A program made the translations under genes and the position numbers. A model generated the notes under the pieces. The model was given only the letters and a program-made list of their open reading frames with translations. It was not told the DNA's origin and made no database searches. From positions 1-39,142 of the forward strand of contig QBXO01000016.1 in the NCBI GenBank assembly GCA_003284565.1: a stretch of 39,142 bases of DNA, given 5' to 3'. The stretch comes from SAR116 cluster bacterium AG-321-K23 (GTDB taxonomy: Bacteria > Pseudomonadota > Alphaproteobacteria > Puniceispirillales > Marisalimonadaceae). How positions within the stretch are numbered: the stretch's first letter is position 1; every line of letters starts with the position of its first letter. Positions 3,820-12,846 of the stretch are shown here, piece after piece.

Positions 3820-4140
3820 TTAATGATAAAAAATACTAAAAATTATTATTTCCAAAATATTTAATCTTGGCTCTACTACAAATATCATTGTTAAAAAAGT
3901 TACCAAAAAAAAATGGTAGAAAAAGTCTATTAATAAAAATTTTTTATTTTCTTTTTCAGTTTTAGTTTTAACTGGTGTTATTACGCCATTAATTAAACCT
4001 AATCTTATCAAATTGTTTCTAATTGATTTTTGACTTCTATTTAGGTTTCTACAAATTTTGTAAGTTGAATAGCCGTCATTAAACATCTTTATGAGATTGG
4101 CTGTTTCTTCTTTTGTATACCTTCCTGTTCTTCTGGTCAT
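3820..4140 (-). CDS. small HTH protein with C-terminal membrane segments
   Basis: The 106-residue product combines two unlike parts. Residues 5-52 form a homeodomain/SANT-like helix-turn-helix (YTKEETANLIKMF, then YSTYKICRNLNRSQKSIRN, followed by LIRLGLI), similar in style to GcrA-type or resolvase-type HTH domains. Residues 66-106 are strongly hydrophobic with one break around EPRL and could form two membrane helices. The predicted product is therefore a membrane-tethered DNA-binding protein. It starts 3 nt after the stop of the upstream MORN gene and lacks its own clear ribosome site, so translational coupling is likely. No sensor domain is visible. The HTH call is by pattern; the target DNA is unknown, though the divergent control region at 4570-4649 is an obvious candidate. 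Confidence 0.6.
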   Translation of the reverse strand: MTRRTGRYTKEETANLIKMFNDGYSTYKICRNLNRSQKSIRNNLIRLGLINGVITPVKTKTEKENKKFLLIDFFYHFFLVTFLTMIFVVEPRLNILEIIIFSIFYH

Positions 4141-4143
4141 TGA

Positions 4144-4527
4144 CTAAGATTTTGTTATTTTTCTAATAAATTTATTTTCTTTAAATTCCCCTTCCAAAAC
4201 TTCCCCATGTCTATCAACAAGCGTTCCTTTCCCATGATATTGTCCATACTGAAATTCACCTTCATATTGCTCAACAATGTCATCGCCGTCCTTGTAATTC
4301 ATTTTACCTTTGCCGTGAGGATATAGCATGTGATATGGATAAGGTTGACTATTAAAATCTTCTCTTAATTTTTTTCCGTTATTTTGAAAGACAAGTGTTT
4401 CAGCAGCATATTCAGGTGAGATTAATGTACCTTCATAATGAACAACAATATCGTCTGCGTCGTAGATCCTACCTTCATCATCAACATTTCTAAGTTGTAT
4501 CTTTTTATTTTTAAAAAAATTAAACAT
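4144..4527 (-). CDS. MORN-repeat protein
   Basis: This 127-residue cytoplasmic protein has at least two MORN-type motifs in its C-terminal half: HGKGKMNYKDGD followed by YEGEFQYGQYHGKGTLVDRHG and LEGEFKENKF (residues 71-120), plus a weaker copy near 28-36 (VVHYEGTL). MORN repeats are short beta-hairpins that mediate protein or lipid contact. I start it at the ATG at 4527 because GGAG at 4535-4538 lies 7 nt upstream; the frame stays open to 4602, but that extension would cover the promoter region. It is first in a leftward operon with the HTH-membrane protein 3 nt downstream. A structural or scaffold role is inference. Confidence 0.7.
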   Translation of the reverse strand: MFNFFKNKKIQLRNVDDEGRIYDADDIVVHYEGTLISPEYAAETLVFQNNGKKLREDFNSQPYPYHMLYPHGKGKMNYKDGDDIVEQYEGEFQYGQYHGKGTLVDRHGEVLEGEFKENKFIRKITKS

Positions 4528-4569
4528 TATTTTACTCCAAGTAAACTTAAGTAACTTTATGGACTGTAA

Positions 4570-4649
4570 AGTATAATAAACATTTAAAAATGTCAATGAC
4601 ATTATCTATTGACATTTATAAATTAATAGTTATATTGACATTTATCAAT
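4570..4649. promoter_or_regulatory. divergent promoter/operator region with repeated TTGACA sites
   Basis: The gap between the MORN gene (leftward) and the MerR-like gene (rightward) holds three copies of ATTGACA: inverted at 4591-4597, and direct at 4608-4614 and 4634-4640. The two direct copies extend to a 12-nt repeat, ATTGACATTTAT, 26 bp apart (4608-4619 and 4634-4645). TCAAT at 4645-4649 gives the last copy a palindromic partner. The copies also fit as -35 boxes: rightward TTGACA 4609-4614 with TATATT 4631-4636 (16-nt spacer), leftward TTGACA 4596-4591 with TACTTT 4573-4568 (17 nt) or TATACT 4575-4570 (15 nt). The region could thus serve as paired promoters, operators, or both; the adjacent MerR-like protein is the likeliest regulator. 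Confidence 0.55.
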
Positions 4650-4672
4650 GTAATTTACGAAAAGTTTATGTT

Positions 4673-5746
4673 ATGAAATTATTAAATGAAAATAAAAAAA
4701 TTGAAGTAAACATCAAAGAGTTCATTGTTTTATGTGAAGAATGGTTAAATACTTTCTTGATTGGTAAAAAAGGATTTATTCCTAATGAAAGACTCATAAG
4801 AGGTTATGTTTCAGAGGGAATATTACCAAAACCAGAAAGAAAAGGTAAAGAATCATTTTATGGTTATAAGCATTTAATTTACTTTCTAGTTTGTAGGGAT
4901 CTTTTTTCAGAAAGTTGGCCTTTAGCCAAAATTAATGAATACTTTAAAAATGCAATTTTTGAAGAGTTAGAATTAAATTTTTTAAATAAATATAACCAAC
5001 AAGCCTTGAATGATTCTTTAGAAGTTATTGGTGAGTTAAAGAAAAGTTCACAAAATAAAATTCAAAAACAAAAAAATAAAGAAACTAATAACAACTTTAC
5101 CAAAAGTTTAATGTTACGTTCATATCAGAATTCTCAACAATCTATAAAGGAATTTGGAAGTGACTTAAACAACGTTTTTAAAGATGAATTTACAACTTTT
5201 ACATTAGCCAGTTGGCTGTCTGTGGCTATCAAAACCAAGAAGTTATCAGAAATAGATGCTGATTTAGCTTACAGAATAAGTAACGCAATTAAGTCAGCGC
5301 TATTAGATACAAACCTTGATGAAAATACATTGATGTACAAAGAAGTAAAACAAACTTCAGACTTAGATCTAAAAAACCAACAACTTGAAAGAGAAAATTT
5401 CACTCTTAGAAAAGATAAATCATTATTAGAAAATAAGATCAAATACAATGAACATGAAACACATCTTAAAGATTTAGAAATTCAAAGGATGGAAAATCTT
5501 ATTAAAGCAAAAGAAGAAAACTTAATGGCTCAATTAGATGAGAGAACTGCTCTCTATGAAAAACAAATACAAACACTAGAAATCCGTAATCAAGAAGAAA
5601 GAAAGATTATAGAAACAGACATGAATAAAAAAATGGAGGAAATAAATTTAAACTATCAGATGGAAATGCAAGATCAAAAATCAATAATTAAACAATATGA
5701 AATAAAATTATTGGAATTAGAAAAAGAGTTAAAAACTAAGAAGTAA
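4673..5746 (+). CDS. MerR-like winged-HTH protein with long C-terminal coiled coil
   Basis: The 357-residue product begins with a MerR-like winged helix-turn-helix at about residues 35-95 (PNERLIRGYVSEGILPKP, then a basic wing and GYKHLIYFLVCRDLF). The middle, about 100-220, is helical and unassigned. From about 225 to the end lies an almost continuous Glu/Lys/Gln-rich coiled coil. Classical MerR regulators are 100-150 residues with a short dimerisation helix, so this is a large variant, perhaps a DNA-binding scaffold rather than a simple repressor. It opens the rightward operon and its promoter region holds repeated TTGACA sites. No strong ribosome site precedes the ATG. The wHTH assignment is fairly sure; autoregulation is inference from position. 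Confidence 0.65.
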   Translation: MKLLNENKKIEVNIKEFIVLCEEWLNTFLIGKKGFIPNERLIRGYVSEGILPKPERKGKESFYGYKHLIYFLVCRDLFSESWPLAKINEYFKNAIFEELELNFLNKYNQQALNDSLEVIGELKKSSQNKIQKQKNKETNNNFTKSLMLRSYQNSQQSIKEFGSDLNNVFKDEFTTFTLASWLSVAIKTKKLSEIDADLAYRISNAIKSALLDTNLDENTLMYKEVKQTSDLDLKNQQLERENFTLRKDKSLLENKIKYNEHETHLKDLEIQRMENLIKAKEENLMAQLDERTALYEKQIQTLEIRNQEERKIIETDMNKKMEEINLNYQMEMQDQKSIIKQYEIKLLELEKELKTKK

Positions 5747-5750
5747 ATTT

Positions 5751-5789
5751 AATAAATAAAAAATTTATTCAGAAAAACACTATTTCTGA
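5751..5789 (+). other. two small tandem stem-loops in VWA gene leader
   Basis: Directly after the MerR-like gene, AATAAAT/ATTTATT (5751-5757 with 5763-5769) can pair around an A5 loop, and TCAGAAA/TTTCTGA (5769-5775 with 5783-5789) around a 7-nt loop. The two share base 5769, so they are adjacent or mutually exclusive. Neither is followed by a T-run, so they do not look like terminators. They could affect mRNA processing or translation of the VWA gene. Confidence 0.3.
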
Positions 5790-5825
5790 CAACAAGATAA
5801 CTATGTCTAAATGAAAGGAAAAAAT

Positions 5826-7151
5826 ATGACAATTACATTAAACTTAAAACCACAAAGAAATGCTTTACTAAGAGGCTTTGACAATGAATTTCATGGTTTG
5901 TTAGAGGTAAAACATACCCAACAAGGTCAGCAAAATTCTCCTCGTAAATCTTTAAATTTATCAATTGTCTTAGACCGATCTGGATCAATGGCTGGTCAGC
6001 CTCTTTTTGAAGCTAAACAAGCGGCAATTATGATGGTTAACAAAATGAGACCTTCTGATCAAATTTCAGTTGTTGCCTATGATGACACAGCTAATCTGAT
6101 TGTTCCAAGTACTCCATGTAGTAACAAACAAGATATTATTACAGCGATACAGAATATCCACGAAGGAAATTTAACAAATCTTCATGGTGGATGGATTATG
6201 GGAGCTGAACAAGTTGCCACGAAAAAAAATGTAAAAAGTATAAATAGAGTTTTATTACTTTCCGATGGTAACGCCAATGTAGGTTTGACAGACGTTAGTG
6301 AATTAAAAAATCAATGTTCAAGACTAGCTGAAACAAATATCACTACTTCAACGTATGGTCTTGGACATTCTTTTAATGAAGAATTAATGGTAAATATTGC
6401 AGGTGCTGGTTTAGGACATAGTTATTATGGGCAAACATCTGATGATTTGATGGATCCTTTTAATGAAGAATTTGAAACTTTATTAAACACAGTTGCTACA
6501 GATTTGCAGGTTATATCTGAATCTTCAAATAATGTAGATTTGGAATTAATGAATAATTATAATGTTGTGGAAAATAATCCTAATCAATTAAGATTTAAAA
6601 TGCCCGATCTTGCTGAAAATGGTGAAGCTTGGGCTTTATTTAAAATTAAAATTAATCTTGAGCACGTTCGAAATCAAAGGTTGGAAGTCCTTAGATGTAA
6701 TGTGTCTTTTAGGAATAATGATGGTGAATTAATTAACAAAGGACCTGCTAAAATAATATTAGATGCAGTTAATCAAAACGCTTTTTCACAAATTTCTGAG
6801 GATGAAAAAGTTAGATTAAGAATCACAGAAATTAATGTTGCAAGGTTTCAAGACAGAGCACGTGAAGCCGCAAGAGTAGGGGATTGGGCATTAACAGAAT
6901 TTTTTATTCGTGAGGCAAGAAGAGAGGCAAAAGGTAATGAATGGTTGAATTCAGTTATAGATAGATTGGAGGTATATGCAAAAGATAGGCAAAGGGAGAA
7001 TTTCAGCAAAGAAGCTCTCTATAGCTCAGATAAAATGAATAAAAGGTTAGTTAGTGATGATGAACTTAATATGAATTACAGTATTGATTTAGAATCTAGT
7101 AAAAATGCTTACCTTCGAAGAAAAGTTGAGAGGGGTAAAAGATTTTCATAA
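5826..7151 (+). CDS. VWA (von Willebrand factor A) domain protein with intact MIDAS
   Basis: This protein (about 441 residues) has a VWA domain at about 40-220. The metal-ion-dependent adhesion site is complete: D50-x-S52-x-S54 (LDRSGSM), a threonine near 118 (LTNLHGG) and an aspartate near 149 (LLSDGNANVG). It should bind a divalent cation and mediate a protein interaction. A beta-rich middle and a helical, charged C-terminus (about 325-430) follow. There is no signal peptide or membrane anchor, so it is cytoplasmic. I start at 5826, preceded by AAAGGA at a 7-nt spacing, rather than the in-frame ATG at 5811, which has no ribosome site. VWA proteins occur in many bacterial conflict and stress operons (for example TerY), usually with a partner ATPase or protease; no MoxR ATPase is seen here. 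Confidence 0.85.
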   Translation: MTITLNLKPQRNALLRGFDNEFHGLLEVKHTQQGQQNSPRKSLNLSIVLDRSGSMAGQPLFEAKQAAIMMVNKMRPSDQISVVAYDDTANLIVPSTPCSNKQDIITAIQNIHEGNLTNLHGGWIMGAEQVATKKNVKSINRVLLLSDGNANVGLTDVSELKNQCSRLAETNITTSTYGLGHSFNEELMVNIAGAGLGHSYYGQTSDDLMDPFNEEFETLLNTVATDLQVISESSNNVDLELMNNYNVVENNPNQLRFKMPDLAENGEAWALFKIKINLEHVRNQRLEVLRCNVSFRNNDGELINKGPAKIILDAVNQNAFSQISEDEKVRLRITEINVARFQDRAREAARVGDWALTEFFIREARREAKGNEWLNSVIDRLEVYAKDRQRENFSKEALYSSDKMNKRLVSDDELNMNYSIDLESSKNAYLRRKVERGKRFS

Positions 7152-7161
7152 ATCTTTTACC
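7134..7161 (+). other. perfect 12-bp hairpin over the VWA stop codon
   Basis: GGTAAAAGATTT (7134-7145) pairs perfectly with AAATCTTTTACC (7150-7161) around a TCAT loop, and the VWA stop codon (7149-7151) lies at the loop and start of the right arm. An AT-only 7-bp hairpin follows (7167-7173 with 7178-7184). The main stem is not followed by a T-run, so it is not a typical Rho-independent terminator. It is better seen as an intra-operon RNA element for processing, mRNA stability or partial attenuation before the 82-residue gene, whose ribosome site GAGG is at 7194-7197. Confidence 0.5.
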
Positions 7162-7202
7162 TACCTTAAAAATAGAAATTTTTATACTTAGGCGAGGTTA
7201 AA

Positions 7203-7451
7203 ATGGAAGATGAATGGATAGATTATTATTCTGAAATTTCAAATTTAGAGGATTACGATGAGGATTTTAATGAAAAAATACACGATGGCGGTTTCATAAA
7301 TAGAAAATTTAAATATTTGAGTAATTATTTCAAAAAATTGAAGACTGAAAATCCTGAATATTGGAATTTTTATTATAACCCCAAGTTAGATGTAGATATT
7401 TTTGCATTTAATCAATTATCAGATGAAGAAAAAAAGAAGATAGCAAATTAA
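7203..7451 (+). CDS. small acidic hypothetical protein, 82 residues
   Basis: I do not recognise this protein. It is rich in Asp, Glu, Tyr and Phe, with an acidic N-terminus and no Cys, signal peptide or membrane helix. GAGG at 7194-7197 lies 5 nt before the ATG, and the strong ribosome site of the next gene follows its stop closely, so it is very likely translated as part of the operon. Its acidic character and its place between the VWA and nuclease-like genes would fit an inhibitor or adaptor for one of those proteins, but that is speculation. Confidence 0.6.
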   Translation: MEDEWIDYYSEISNLEDYDEDFNEKIHDGGFINRKFKYLSNYFKKLKTENPEYWNFYYNPKLDVDIFAFNQLSDEEKKKIAN

Positions 7452-7468
7452 CAAATAAGGAGTTCTAA

Positions 7469-8635
7469 ATGAGTGAAATAACATGTCCAAACTGTGACAG
7501 TAAATTTAACATTGATGATGTGAGCTACTCTAATATTCTTAAACAAGTTCATAACCAAGAGTTTGAAAATGAGATTAATGAGAGAATAAAAAGTCTAGAA
7601 AGAGAGCATAGTTCTGCTCTAACAATCTATAAAAAAGATGCAGAATTAAAACTTGAAAAAGCTGTAAATAATAAAGACAAAGAGATTGAAACTATAAAGT
7701 TAAATAATCGGGAAGAACTTAGAAAATCTGAAGATAAAATCAAAGATTTGAAAAATGAAAATGAAATATCTGAAATTAAAATCAAAAGTGAATATGAACA
7801 AAAAATTAATTCTGACGCTGAATATTATAAAAATCAGATTAAAGATAGAGAAGAGACAATTGATCGTATGAAAGAGATGAAAGCAAAGCTTTCAACAAAA
7901 ATGGTCGGCGAAACTCTTGAGCAACACTGTGAAACAGAATTTAATACGTTACGTGCTACAGCTTTTCAAAATGCATATTTTGAAAAAGATAATGATGCAT
8001 CATCTGGGAGTAAAGGGGATTATATCTTTAGAGATAAGGATGATAGTAACAATGAAATTGTATCAGTAATGTTTGAAATGAAAAATGAGAATGATACAAC
8101 AGCAACTAAAACTAAAAACGAGCATTTCTTTAAAGAGTTAGATAAGGACAGAAATGAAAAGGGTTGTGAGTATGCTGTTTTAGTTTCATTGCTAGAGCAG
8201 GAAAGTGAACTTTACAATTCTGGTATTGTAGATGTTTCTCATAAGTATCCAAAAATGTATGTTGTAAGACCCCAATTTTTCATTCCAATTATTACACTTT
8301 TAAGAAATGCGGCAATGAATTCTTTGGAATACAAAAAAGAATTAGCTCAAATTAGAAACCAAAATATTGACATTACAAACTTTGAAGCTGACCTAAATAA
8401 TTTCAAAGAAAATTTTGGAAGAAATTATAGTTTAGCGTCTCGGCAATTTTTCAATGCAATTGATCAAATTGATAAGACCATATCTAGTATGCAAAAAATC
8501 AAAGATGAATTGTTACGCAGCAATAACAATTTAAGATTAGCAAATGATAAAGCAGATAATTTAACTATAACAAGGTTAACAAGAAATAATCCTACTATGG
8601 CTGCTATGTTTGACAGTCAATCTGGAGATAATTGA
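7469..8635 (+). CDS. DUF2130 protein, PD-(D/E)xK nuclease-like
   Basis: The 388-residue product matches the DUF2130 family: an N-terminal MSEITCPNCDSKF with a single CxxC, a coiled coil at about 30-150, then a compact alpha/beta domain. That domain contains GDYIF (D184) and VMFEMKNE (E203-x-K205), the spacing expected for the core of a PD-(D/E)xK nuclease fold; DUF2130 has been linked to restriction-endonuclease-like folds. A helical tail follows from about 290. Only one CxxC pair is visible, so a full zinc ribbon would need a partner chain. The start is firm: AAGGAG sits 6 nt before the ATG. DNA is the expected substrate but cleavage activity is not proven for the family. It is probably the effector-like component of the operon. 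Confidence 0.8.
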   Translation: MSEITCPNCDSKFNIDDVSYSNILKQVHNQEFENEINERIKSLEREHSSALTIYKKDAELKLEKAVNNKDKEIETIKLNNREELRKSEDKIKDLKNENEISEIKIKSEYEQKINSDAEYYKNQIKDREETIDRMKEMKAKLSTKMVGETLEQHCETEFNTLRATAFQNAYFEKDNDASSGSKGDYIFRDKDDSNNEIVSVMFEMKNENDTTATKTKNEHFFKELDKDRNEKGCEYAVLVSLLEQESELYNSGIVDVSHKYPKMYVVRPQFFIPIITLLRNAAMNSLEYKKELAQIRNQNIDITNFEADLNNFKENFGRNYSLASRQFFNAIDQIDKTISSMQKIKDELLRSNNNLRLANDKADNLTITRLTRNNPTMAAMFDSQSGDN

Positions 8636-8660
8636 TAGTTTAAATAAATATGGAGTAATG

Positions 8661-9941
8661 ATGTTACTTAAATGCCAAAAAAATTATATTTCGATAATTA
8701 TTTTATTTTTCTCACTAACTTTTTCAATAAATGTCTTTGCTAAGAGCTTTATAGACAACGCATCAAATTACACAGTTCGTTTTAGAGTTTTAGTAGATCA
8801 TCCATTTGTTGAAGATACTAACGACGATCGAATTATAAGATCATGGGTAGGAGCAGGTTTTGTTGTCGACAAATCTTTAGGACTAATTGTAACTAACGCA
8901 CACGTGTCTGGGGTAGGTAACACTTATATTAAAATTGCATTTAAAGGCGAGAAGTTTTTGAAAGCAGAACTGATTTATGTTGATCCTGAACTAGACTTGG
9001 CATTAGTTAAAGTTGATACAAAAAAAATGCCGCAAAATTCAAGCGAAGCTGAACTTAGTTGTGAAAAGTCTATTGCAAATGGAACTGCAGTTGCTGCATA
9101 TGGTCATCCAAAAGGGCTTAAATTTTCTGCATCTAGGGGCATTATATCAAATCAAAGGTTTCTTTATGGTAAAGAAGTAATACAAACAGACGCAGCTATA
9201 AATACTGGAAATTCTGGTGGGCCTTTAATTAACTTGGATACAGGCTTGATAGTAGGGATTAATAAGTCAACTATTAAGAAATCAAGTGGTATAGGTTTGG
9301 CTATTCCCTCTTATTTGTTATGTAAAATTTTAGATCTTTATAAGGCAGGGAAAAGTCCACTACCTATGGAAGTTCCAATAAAATTCGCTAAAGATAACGA
9401 AACAGAACAATATAATATAGTTTCTGAACTTCATTTGGACGGAAAGATTTTAGAGATAGGTTCAAGCTTAATAAAAGTAAATGACCAGTTCATTAAAACC
9501 CCTGCTGACATGAGTTATATTTTAAGAGGATTAGATGGAAAAGCAAAATTTACATTTAAAAATCAAGATAGAGAAAAGGACTATTTTATTGATTTAAAGA
9601 AGAAACAAAACAGTATTTATAGGGACTATATAAATTTAGGGGGTGCTGTAATAGCTGCTAAAAATTATGAAAAAATCAGTTCTGAGCAACGTCCTTTTTA
9701 TATTCATAGTATTAAAGTAGGTTCAGACGCTGATATCTATGGAATTTGGAAGGACTGTTGGATTAAATACGTAAATGCAACTATACCAAAATCATTAAGT
9801 GATATTGCTAAAATTACAAAAGGAAAAAAAGAAATCAATTTAATAACAAGTTGTTACACGTCTAGACAAGGATTTTTAACTTTAGATTATTCTGTTCGAC
9901 TAGAGCTTGAAAAAGATAAAATAGAATACATAAAACGATGA
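8661..9941 (+). CDS. exported trypsin-like (HtrA/S1C-type) serine protease
   Basis: The product has a Sec signal peptide (residues 1-27, likely cut after VFA) and a trypsin-fold domain with the full catalytic triad: H81 in TNAHV, D112 in ELDLALV and S185 in GNSGGPL. Beyond about 240 come two degenerate PDZ-like modules; the second has a clear VGSDADIYGIW...INLI pattern. This matches the layout of DegP/HtrA quality-control proteases and would place it in the periplasm. I start at 8661 because GGAG at 8652-8655 is 5 nt upstream; the adjacent ATG at 8658 would be too close. The start lies 25 nt after the DUF2130 stop and the gene ends in an ATGA overlap with the next. An exported protease beside cytoplasmic VWA and nuclease-like proteins is unusual. 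Confidence 0.85.
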   Translation: MLLKCQKNYISIIILFFSLTFSINVFAKSFIDNASNYTVRFRVLVDHPFVEDTNDDRIIRSWVGAGFVVDKSLGLIVTNAHVSGVGNTYIKIAFKGEKFLKAELIYVDPELDLALVKVDTKKMPQNSSEAELSCEKSIANGTAVAAYGHPKGLKFSASRGIISNQRFLYGKEVIQTDAAINTGNSGGPLINLDTGLIVGINKSTIKKSSGIGLAIPSYLLCKILDLYKAGKSPLPMEVPIKFAKDNETEQYNIVSELHLDGKILEIGSSLIKVNDQFIKTPADMSYILRGLDGKAKFTFKNQDREKDYFIDLKKKQNSIYRDYINLGGAVIAAKNYEKISSEQRPFYIHSIKVGSDADIYGIWKDCWIKYVNATIPKSLSDIAKITKGKKEINLITSCYTSRQGFLTLDYSVRLELEKDKIEYIKR

Positions 9942-10198
9942 AAACAATAACAGAGCGACAAACTAAAATTATAAATTTTTCAAATTATCAAAAGAAAAAA
10001 ATTTATAATGATTTTCATGCAATAATTTACAAAGAGTTTAATAAAAGTATTTCTGACATAAATTATTTTTTCAAATATGAAAATAATCATATTTTTGAGG
10101 TTCTTGAAGAAGCTTATGATGATGGTGGTCCAATAAGAATGAGAAAAGAAGTTGATTATACAATTCAATCTTTCAGGTTAGCATTTAATTGTCCATAA
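9938..10198 (+). CDS. small hypothetical protein, 86 residues
   Basis: I do not recognise it. It is Lys/Tyr/Phe-rich with a short acidic patch ending in DDGGP, and has no signal peptide or membrane helix. Its ATG overlaps the protease stop (ATGA), so it is translationally coupled to the protease gene and is the last gene of the rightward operon. Its last 21 nt overlap the 3' end of the convergent gene on the minus strand. The coupling supports a real gene. A cytoplasmic product coupled to an exported protease has no obvious direct partner in that compartment. Confidence 0.5.
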   Translation: MKTITERQTKIINFSNYQKKKIYNDFHAIIYKEFNKSISDINYFFKYENNHIFEVLEEAYDDGGPIRMRKEVDYTIQSFRLAFNCP

Positions 10199-11405: not shown

Positions 11406-12596
11406 TTAATTAGTTTTTCCTTTCAAATAATTGTCCCATTCATTCATAATGAGATGCCGCTTTTGAAGAAGCTTTGATCTTAGGTAAGCTTCTTCTGTTT
11501 TATCTTTGTTCTGATGACTTAAACATAGCTCCACAGCTCTTCTTGAAAAGTTGTGTTGTTCCTCAGCCCAATCTCTAAATGATGATCTAAAACCATGTGT
11601 AACTGATTGCTTATAGATCTCAGGGAAGTTATTTTTTAAAAGTTTTAACATAGAATTATTTGAAATATGCGTATCAGCTTTTGTCCCCGGGAACACATAC
11701 TTACTATCAGATATATTTTTTAGTTCTTTTAGTAACTCCAATGCGCTTTCATTAAGAGTTACGCTATGTTTGTTTCTAATTTTTATTCTGTTTTCTGGTA
11801 TGTTCCATATTTTGAGTTTAAAATTAAACTCATCCCATTCAGCTGCAATAACTTCGCTAGTTCGTGAAGCTGTAAGTATCAAAAAAAGAAGAGCTTTAGC
11901 CGAGTATAAGTTAGTTTTCTTTAATTCAGATACAAATTCTGGAAGATTTTCATACGGTAAAGATCTATGATGTTGAACTGATCTAATTGAGGAAGATTTT
12001 GGTAGTAAATATTCTAAATTTCCATTAAGTGCAGCTGGGTTAGGGTGGTCTCTATATCCTAGGGTGATTGACCAATTTAGTACTTTCTCAATCCTTTGTC
12101 TTACTCTTGTTGCAGTTTCATTTTTTGTAGACCAAATTGGTTTTAATATTTTAAGAACATCTATGTTTTTAATCTTTGAAACGGGATAATTACCTATGTG
12201 AGGGTAAACATATCTTTTGAGTGTATTTACCCATTGCTGGCTGTGTTTTTTATTAGTCCATTGATCTTTAAATGTTTCAATATAGCTAGAAGCAGCAACT
12301 TTAAACGTCATTGCTTCTTTTTTAATTAAATCTATTTTTATTTTATTTTTTTCAAAAATTGGATCTAAGTCTTGAAGTACTAATTCTTTTTGTTGATCTC
12401 TTTTTTTGCGTGCATTAGCTAATGAAATTTGTGGAAAAGATCCAAGCCCCATATCTTTAGTTTTTCCAAATAATCTATACCTAAAAATCCAACTTTTTTT
12501 CCCGGTTTTTGTTATTCTTAATCTAAGGCCGTCACCGTCACCATAAATACCCGGTTTTTTAAGATTTATAATTTTAGCTGCACTCATTCTATTCAA
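11406..12596 (-). CDS. P4-type tyrosine integrase
   Basis: This 396-residue tyrosine recombinase has an N-terminal DUF4102-type arm-binding domain (about 10-75, DGDGLRLRI and WIFRYRLFGK), a SAM-like core-binding domain (about 95-185) and a catalytic domain with R245 (TASRTSEV), a likely K276, H334-x-x-R337 (HGFRSSF), H361 and nucleophile Y371. All catalytic residues are present, so it appears functional. The first in-frame start is a TTG at 12596 with AGAGGGA 6 nt upstream; an ATG at 12587 is the alternative but is too far from that ribosome site. It lies next to the 3' end of tRNA-Ser(GCU), the expected target of this family, and should catalyse integration and excision of the island. Confidence 0.92.
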   Translation of the reverse strand: MNRMSAAKIINLKKPGIYGDGDGLRLRITKTGKKSWIFRYRLFGKTKDMGLGSFPQISLANARKKRDQQKELVLQDLDPIFEKNKIKIDLIKKEAMTFKVAASSYIETFKDQWTNKKHSQQWVNTLKRYVYPHIGNYPVSKIKNIDVLKILKPIWSTKNETATRVRQRIEKVLNWSITLGYRDHPNPAALNGNLEYLLPKSSSIRSVQHHRSLPYENLPEFVSELKKTNLYSAKALLFLILTASRTSEVIAAEWDEFNFKLKIWNIPENRIKIRNKHSVTLNESALELLKELKNISDSKYVFPGTKADTHISNNSMLKLLKNNFPEIYKQSVTHGFRSSFRDWAEEQHNFSRRAVELCLSHQNKDKTEEAYLRSKLLQKRHLIMNEWDNYLKGKTN

Positions 12597-12647: not shown

Positions 12648-12757
12648 CCATTATAACAATTCAGGGCATTCCGCACAAGTACTTGAATTTATTATATTTT
12701 TTAAAACTATAATGATACTCTATGTAACTCTATGGACAATAATGGGAATTATAATGG
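12648..12757. repeat. separated 9-bp inverted repeat in the attachment region
   Basis: CCATTATAA at 12648-12656 has an exact inverted partner, TTATAATGG, at 12749-12757; the flanks extend the match imperfectly (AACAATTC against GAATT). The right arm ends inside the encoded CCA of the tRNA-Ser gene. In AT-rich DNA a 9-bp match about 90 bp apart could be chance, but its position between integrase and tRNA makes an accessory recombination site possible. Confidence 0.25.
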
Positions 12758-12846
12758 CGGAGGGAGGGGGATTCGAACCCCCGAAAGGGATTGCTCCCTT
12801 TAACGATTTAGCAAACCGGCGCCTTCAGCCACTCAGCCACCCCTCC
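12755..12846 (-). tRNA. tRNA-Ser(GCU), CCA encoded
   Basis: On the minus strand the gene folds as a class II tRNA. The acceptor arm is GGAGGGG paired with TCCCTCC (ending in a G-T pair), discriminator G, and an encoded CCA at 12757-12755. The D arm contains GCTGAGTGGCTGAAGG. The anticodon loop TTGCTAA carries GCT, reading AGC/AGT serine codons. A long variable arm (AAAGGGAGCAATCCCTTT) and a T arm with GGTTCGAATCC follow. The anticodon stem has one imperfect pair at its base (C-T). The long variable arm and anticodon agree on serine. Its 3' half is the likely integration target of the adjacent integrase. Confidence 0.95.

Follow-up and report, generated by a model that had tools for sequence, protein, structure and literature searches.

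The window analyzed here is a stretch of 39,142 nucleotides from a SAR116 cluster bacterium, in which two divergent operons are separated by a 145-bp intergenic region that carries several copies of one short word. The questions were whether these copies form a genuine control element, which protein would bind them, and what would be controlled. The rightward operon starts with the gene of a MerR-like regulator of 357 aa (4673–5746, forward strand), the proposed operator binder. Its winged helix-turn-helix (wHTH) occupies about residues 10–98 and its coiled coil about residues 218–356; Pfam MerR_1 scored below the cut-off (16.9 vs 21.6 bits), and the protein had no other Pfam hit. The second gene (5811–7151, forward strand) encodes a vWA-domain protein (Pfam VWA, E=4.7e-18), and the remaining genes (7203–10198, forward strand) encode an 82-aa protein, a DUF2130 protein, a trypsin-like/HtrA-type protease, and an 86-aa protein. 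The divergent operon begins with a MORN protein gene (4144–4527, reverse strand), whose ATG at 4527 is behind GGAG. Its second gene (3820–4140, reverse strand) encodes a small HTH protein with a C-terminal hydrophobic stretch (the HTH-membrane protein below), which gave a weak Cbp1 HTH hit and matched a phage D5-like regulator (E=1e-07).

An earlier sequence-only reading of this DNA had noted three copies of ATTGACA in less than 60 bp, one inverted and two direct, with the direct pair extended to a 12-nt repeat 26 bp apart. The copies were found at 4591–4597 (reverse strand), 4608–4614 (forward strand), and 4634–4640 (forward strand), and the 12-nt repeat ATTGACATTTAT at 4608 and 4634. ATTGACATTTAT had five occurrences in the whole assembly (1,806,458 bases, 68.75% complete). 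Shuffling the window 300 times produced three ATTGACA copies within 50 bp once, and 5000 shuffles of the intergenic region never did; a scan of the whole window located four TGWCA words within 50 bp only at 4591/4597/4610/4636. The cluster between the divergent genes is real and beyond chance. A contrary reading is that the copies are ordinary -35 boxes that cluster by accident in an A+T-rich spacer. TTGACA is indeed the sigma-70 consensus, and over the whole window ATTGACA was at background level (11 observed vs 10.1 expected). Moreover, a 3-kb scan gave fewer promoter-like sites than shuffles did (11 vs 18.4), so the scan proves nothing alone. The intergenic shuffles argue against this reading, as do the control upstream regions, which carried one TTGACA in only 6 of 78 cases and two in none, and the conservation of dyads across proteobacterial classes; it is scarcely credible.

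Further words in the same region had been overlooked. TGACA at 4597–4601 forms, with the inverted copy beside it, the dyad TGTCA-A-TGACA at 4591–4601 (TGTCANTGACA), which occurred a single time in the 1.8-Mb assembly; the half-sites TGTAA (4649–4653) and TTACG (4655–4659) had likewise been missed. The orientation of TGWCA copies is little informative because TGACA and TGTCA differ in the central base only. Read from the DNA, the unit is best described as an array of TGTNA/TNACA half-sites rather than as ATTGACA itself, and the three ATTGACA copies are half-sites within this array.

Two putative operators, neither assigned to a strand, were delimited by matches to the triplet TNACA-N8-TGTNA-N1-TNACA. 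With one mismatch allowed, the triplet matched at 4578–4601 (forward strand) and 4591–4614 (reverse strand), which overlap on both strands, and also at 4636–4659 (forward strand); operator 1 was hence placed at 4578–4614 and the start of operator 2 at 4636. Putative operator 1 contains AAACA (4578–4582, one mismatch to TNACA), TGTCA (4591–4595), TGACA (4597–4601), and TGACA (4610–4614), with start-to-start spacings of 13, 6, and 13; its one-mismatch triplet was reached in 0 of 100 shuffles. Putative operator 2 (about 4636–4673; spacings of 13, 6, and 14) is weaker and contains TGACA (4636–4640), TGTAA (4649–4653), TTACG (4655–4659, one mismatch), and possibly TGTTA (4669–4673), which was assigned by eye. 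Relaxed half-sites alone were not significant in the window, where six were found and as many occurred in 42 of 500 shuffles. Across the assembly, no regulon stood out, as 25 triplet matches with at most one mismatch (three of them in the window) against 20 for a reversed control denote background. The sole exact triplet match in this genome fell inside a gene that resembles rmuC. A longer MORN reading frame up to an ATG at 4602, passing through operator 1, is probably spurious. This upstream reading (4528–4602 of the window) begins with MSLTF inside the dyad, and the in-frame dyad of two other loci (L030 and L031) also reads MSLT, a false N-terminus from operator DNA.

The MerR-like gene has relatives in alpha-, beta-, and gammaproteobacteria, whose proteins are 17–29% identical to the window protein across the aligned part. 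Counting the window, 7 of 151 related genomes and 3 of 385 class genomes had the gene (of the latter, G320 serves as L041, and the weak L042 was left out), and the species collection added 20 loci (genome contigs, with a five-sequence alignment as the query). The total was 22 distinct proteobacterial loci, namely, the window, L019–L038, and L041. The relatives at the genus and order levels were SAR116 cluster bins, and the order search returned 11 of 136 genomes, five of them full members already known and the other six partial or distant. The window protein alone as the query retrieved no relative from the genome contigs or viral contigs. The sole viral match of the five-sequence alignment (L039) lay inside a 3490-codon frame and was dropped as false. 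Among plasmids, the proteins of the window, L034, L030, and L037 gave no match as queries, and the L041 protein led to cyanobacterial fusions. In the phylum sample, 15 of 398 genomes matched, including the window's own, and the other matches were other MerR proteins; the family of G812 had no relative in 398 genomes, and that of G320 had one in 75, G320 itself. The bin of L030, titled Klebsiella pneumoniae, closely matched L031 (uncultured Gammaproteobacteria) in both the MerR-like gene and the upstream DNA, and its species label is doubtful. A vWA gene came directly after the MerR-like gene in 18 of the 19 loci whose contig continued past the gene, the exception being L037; the contig ended after the MerR-like gene in L021, L029, and L038.

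Loss of the repeats where the genes persist had been named as a refuting outcome, but the repeats were conserved with the gene across the proteobacterial loci; the searches returned no close orthologue of the intergenic region itself. Usable upstream DNA was available for 20 loci, with L019 (44 bp upstream) and L026 (gene at the contig edge) excluded. The near-duplicates L025, L029, L031, and L038 were left out of the counts, and L028 was omitted from the 5-mer ranking only. TGACA ranked first of 512 5-mer classes from -120 to -1 in 15 non-redundant upstream regions, with 43 copies vs 5.8 in shuffles (z 17.2). At least two copies were present in 12 of these 15 loci, whereas 200 shuffles gave a mean of 0.83 and a largest value of 4. 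With L028 added, at least two TGWCA words lay upstream of 13 of 16 MerR-like genes but in only 2 of 78 control regions upstream of other genes in those loci. Upstream of 17 other MerR genes, TGWCA was absent in 13, single in two, double in one, and triple in one; the two regions with at least two copies, L044 and L046, were both beside vWA-like sequence. Between 76 and 40 bp upstream of its MerR start codon, the reverse strand of L046 reads TGACA-TGACA-TAACA-TGTCA at exact 12-bp steps. The upstream regions aligned poorly save for four near-duplicate pairs; thus, the sites are conserved within otherwise diverged DNA. L023 had none of these sites upstream of its MerR-like gene, and L020 had a single exact TGWCA. 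L021 had no TGWCA within 120 bp because its operators sit at -193 to -93.

The arrangement of the half-sites was clearest in L021 and L022. Exact operators of four half-sites started at -193/-180/-174/-162 and -124/-111/-105/-93 in L021 and at -107/-94/-88/-76 and -41/-28/-22/-10 in L022, with the spacing 13-6-12 in all four operators; operator 2 of the window takes the same place as operator 2 of these two loci. The triplet TNACA-N8-TGTNA-N1-TNACA was exact in 6 of 20 regions, and another 7, the window among them, had it within one mismatch, each reached in 0–1 of 100 shuffles. A variant, TGACA-N14-TGTCA-N3-TNACA, was exact in 7 of 20 regions, all with beta or Rubrivivax/Polynucleobacter-like labels. 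Either pattern (the triplet with at most one mismatch or the exact N14 variant) was present in 16 of 20 regions. L033 and L037 had the triplet with two mismatches (0 of 100 shuffles), and L035 had the N3 dyad only. These gapped patterns were written after viewing the loci, and the shuffle counts are not independent. The cyanobacterial relatives L083 and L084 were found after the pattern was fixed, and both had TTACA-N8-TGTAA at -50, as did 10 and 7 of 1000 shuffles, respectively.

The sequence-only reading had named two candidate binders, the MerR-like protein and the HTH-membrane protein. The HTH of the latter weakly matches a CRISPR-repeat-binding protein and a phage regulator, its gene adjoins the repeats, and the gene stays with MORN in L014. 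However, outside the window the HTH-membrane and MORN genes were recognized only in that same contig (L014/L021), whereas half-sites occur upstream of most MerR-like genes; it is very unlikely that the HTH-membrane protein, or another regulator, binds the repeats. The MerR-like candidate is favored, the sites traveling with its gene. Its AlphaFold2 model had a pLDDT of >90 over most of residues 11–100 and showed a wHTH of high confidence together with a long coiled coil. MerR-family structures matched the model at Z 9.3–9.7, which identifies a MerR-type winged HTH; in this structure aligner, the second one used, TnrA and GlnR (Z 9.7) were not separated from other MerR proteins (Z 9.3–9.6). GlnR was first when the family profile was compared with the PDB (E 0.005–0.0096), and the first row from Foldseek was GlnR-DNA (E 0.013), with no match reaching E 0.001. 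The absence of a family from the structure-aligner matches was not counted as evidence.

According to the retrieved part of a structural study (PMC9249791), the GlnR site is TGTNA-N7-TNACA, the crystal DNA contains TGTCA...TGACA, and, in the Sa numbering, Arg28 reads G4, Arg31 touches T7', and Tyr32 touches T3. The motif ERLVRYY of the MerR-like family aligns with ARQIRYY of GlnR, and R40 and R43 therefore correspond to Arg28 and Arg31. Neither arginine varied among 21 rows, near-duplicates counted, or among 14 rows that took in the cyanobacterial relatives. The position of Tyr32 is residue 44, which is a glycine (Gly44) in the window protein and Tyr or Asp in other members. Hence, the half-sites and the conserved arginines agree on half-site and reader by two independent routes. 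On this comparison of residues and sites, the MerR-like protein, not the HTH-membrane protein, probably binds the array, and we hold with high confidence that the array is the operator of the MerR-like protein.

The position of the array relative to the promoters bears on what binding would do. The predicted rightward promoter (4609–4636, forward strand) consists of the -35 box TTGACA (4609–4614), a 16-nt spacer, and the -10 box TATATT (4631–4636); it matched 11 of 12 consensus positions and was the top of the 3-kb scan. Its -35 box sits in the last half-site of operator 1, and its -10 box abuts the first half-site of operator 2. The last ATTGACA copy had been said to overlap the rightward -10, and it does so by one base. 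The proposal that each divergent promoter uses a copy as its -35 box agrees with the predicted rightward promoter and is uncertain for the leftward one. The possible leftward promoter is weak (4570–4596, reverse strand; TTGACA at 4596–4591, 15 nt, TATACT at 4575–4570), the scanner preferred another on the same strand (ATGTCA at 4602–4597, 18 nt, TATTAT at 4578–4573), and the leftward spacing was not conserved in L014 and L022. The best-scoring promoter had TTGACA as its -35 box in 17 of 22 loci, with two cyanobacterial loci and near-duplicates counted, and a T preceded TGACA in 24 of 37 sense copies. In several beta loci, a TGTCA half-site follows 17 nt on, and its CA forms the start of the best -10 box. 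The start codons of the loci were chosen by hand; the ATG chosen for L024 falls within TATAATG, so its TTGACA-16-TATAAT is absent from the promoter tally, and its true start is probably further downstream.

Half-sites over both the -35 and -10 boxes would argue for repression. Many MerR proteins, by comparison, twist a long-spaced promoter, and the MerR-like protein could act in the same way as an activator or dual regulator. Its MerR fold and the longer spacers of some relatives, such as TTGACA-19-TATACT in L037, are in accordance with such a role. However, the operators of classical MerR activators lie in promoters with a 19–20 bp spacer, whereas the spacer in the window is 16 nt and the half-sites cover both promoter elements, and activation is regarded as unlikely.

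Repression by the MerR-like protein is the preferred reading. The half-sites and their retention beside the gene, the modeled wHTH fold, and the two unvarying arginines were observed, and a mechanism is proposed from them. The ideal operator would comprise four GlnR-type half-sites whose successive starts lie about 13, 6, and 12–13 positions apart. Operator 1 would lie between the divergent genes, its last half-site doubling as the rightward -35 box, and operator 2 would extend from the rightward -10 box toward the start codon. The MerR-like protein, as a dimer or larger oligomer probably held by the coiled coil, would occupy both operators. The bound protein would block RNA polymerase at the rightward promoter, thereby autorepressing merR-vwa-DUF2130-protease, and could also occlude the leftward MORN promoter. 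An inducing signal, which the vWA partner may sense, would remove the protein, and both operons would open together. We consider it likely that the MerR-like protein represses its own operon and controls the divergent MORN operon through the two operators.

Among known systems, GlnR/TnrA, the nitrogen regulators of the MerR family in Gram-positive bacteria, share the TGTNA/TNACA half-sites, the wHTH, and the two base-reading arginines. The spacing differs. GlnR/TnrA uses TGTNA-N7-TNACA, whereas the MerR-like arrays have N1, N3, or N8 between half-sites and four half-sites per array. The N7 form was exact in 1 of 20 regions (L024), and the window showed it with two mismatches, as good a match as in 98 of 100 shuffles. 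A C-terminal tail of GlnR/TnrA binds glutamine synthetase; the C-terminus of the MerR-like protein is a predicted coiled coil. Unlike GlnR/TnrA, the protein has this long coiled coil and a vWA partner, and no glutamine synthetase link was seen. BldC, as described in the retrieved part of PMC5859096, resembles it in having a MerR-like wHTH that acts at promoters with a varying number of repeats. However, that BldC is a protein of 68 residues without a coiled coil that recognizes head-to-tail AATTnnnn(C), whereas the MerR-like protein has 357 aa, a predicted coiled coil (218–356), the motif TGACA, and an array in which dyads dominate; on these points it departs from BldC. CvkR shares the MerR fold (Z 7.5). 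In the accessible sections of its paper (PMC9938897), CvkR is a MerR-type repressor of type V-K CRISPR-associated transposons with a short palindrome, AnnACATnATGTnnT, which is another motif, and the data given there point away from autoregulation.

Local repressors of defence islands are already known, including BrxR (PMC9122601) and RptR (PMC12255303), in the portions of those reports that were available. From the same portion of the BrxR report, the shared traits are autoregulation within a defence island, repeats placed downstream of the regulator's promoter, and a second operator; BrxR differs in its WYL domain and 11-bp inverted repeats, and no WYL hit was found in the MerR-like protein (Pfam, E 0.01). 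A further relation is provided by L083 and L084, two cyanobacterial plasmid loci (3977–5476 in each) in which a MerR-like wHTH is fused to a pPIWI-RE REase protein (PF18154, E 1.3e-13). The wHTH is related and the same half-site words lie upstream, but it is fused to an effector, whereas the MerR-like protein is instead paired with vWA. The two domains are 96% alike and represent one lineage. The accessible text of the 2013 pPIWI-RE paper (PMC3702460) mentions MerR HTH fusions and suggests autoregulation.

Anti-phage Zorya genes neighbor the MerR-like gene in some relatives. In genome G046 (L015/L022), ZorA2 lies across a shared 187-bp spacer from merR-vwa and is followed by ZorB2 and ZorE2 (E 3e-90, 3e-55, and 1e-55, respectively), and genome G023 (L016/L029) has the same gene order; the divergent merR-vwa and Zorya II genes are at 4614–8111 and 8299–10962 of L015 and at 5650–9776 of L016. 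ZorA1/ZorB1-like genes and a UvrD-like helicase are present beyond Zorya II in L015 and L016. In L034 (8919–16079, bin labeled Rubrivivax), merR-vwa is followed after ~1.8 kb by ZorA1-ZorB1-ZorC1 of Zorya I. PADLOC, given 10 of the window proteins, detected no system and neither ZorA nor ZorB in this set; its hits to the UvrD-like, DUF2130, and protease proteins were weak or partial.

As the array separates merR-vwa from Zorya II in two relatives, it may represent a control module that is transferable between defence islands. Tentatively, the MerR-like/vWA pair and its TGTNA/TNACA array could form a self-regulated module in which the vWA sensor strips off the repressor on infection, opening both operons. 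It is possible, although doubtful, that this module serves Zorya II in the two SAR116 genomes, Zorya I nearby in the Rubrivivax bin, and pPIWI-RE through the fused relative. With the same reserve, the window island might be an undescribed vWA-DUF2130-protease system. Literature searches, some of them noisy with medical papers, returned no merR-vwa(-DUF2130) cassette or MerR regulator of Zorya, and the text of a Zorya paper (PMC11890865) contained none of the terms MerR, vWA, repressor, and transcription factor. No description of the MerR-like family, the operator grammar, or the Zorya link was found in the literature searched; GlnR-type half-sites are already known.

Little is known on how defence islands stay silent and when they open. 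The MerR-like family keeps a recognizable operator at no more than 30% protein identity over three proteobacterial classes, with Zorya neighbors in some loci, and thus offers a defined DNA target together with a protein. Further islands with this family could be found from 100 bp of promoter. Furthermore, the GlnR half-site would be used here by a quite different coiled-coil MerR family under new spacing rules. Two observations concern the surroundings. ADP-ribosylglycohydrolase genes (PF03747) lie near the MerR-like genes in L025 (10846–11829), L014 (655–1524), and L017 (1708–2571), which are Polynucleobacter and SAR116 loci. In the window, a tyrosine integrase gene (11406–12596) adjoins tRNA-Ser (12755–12846), and this pair is likely the attachment end of the island.
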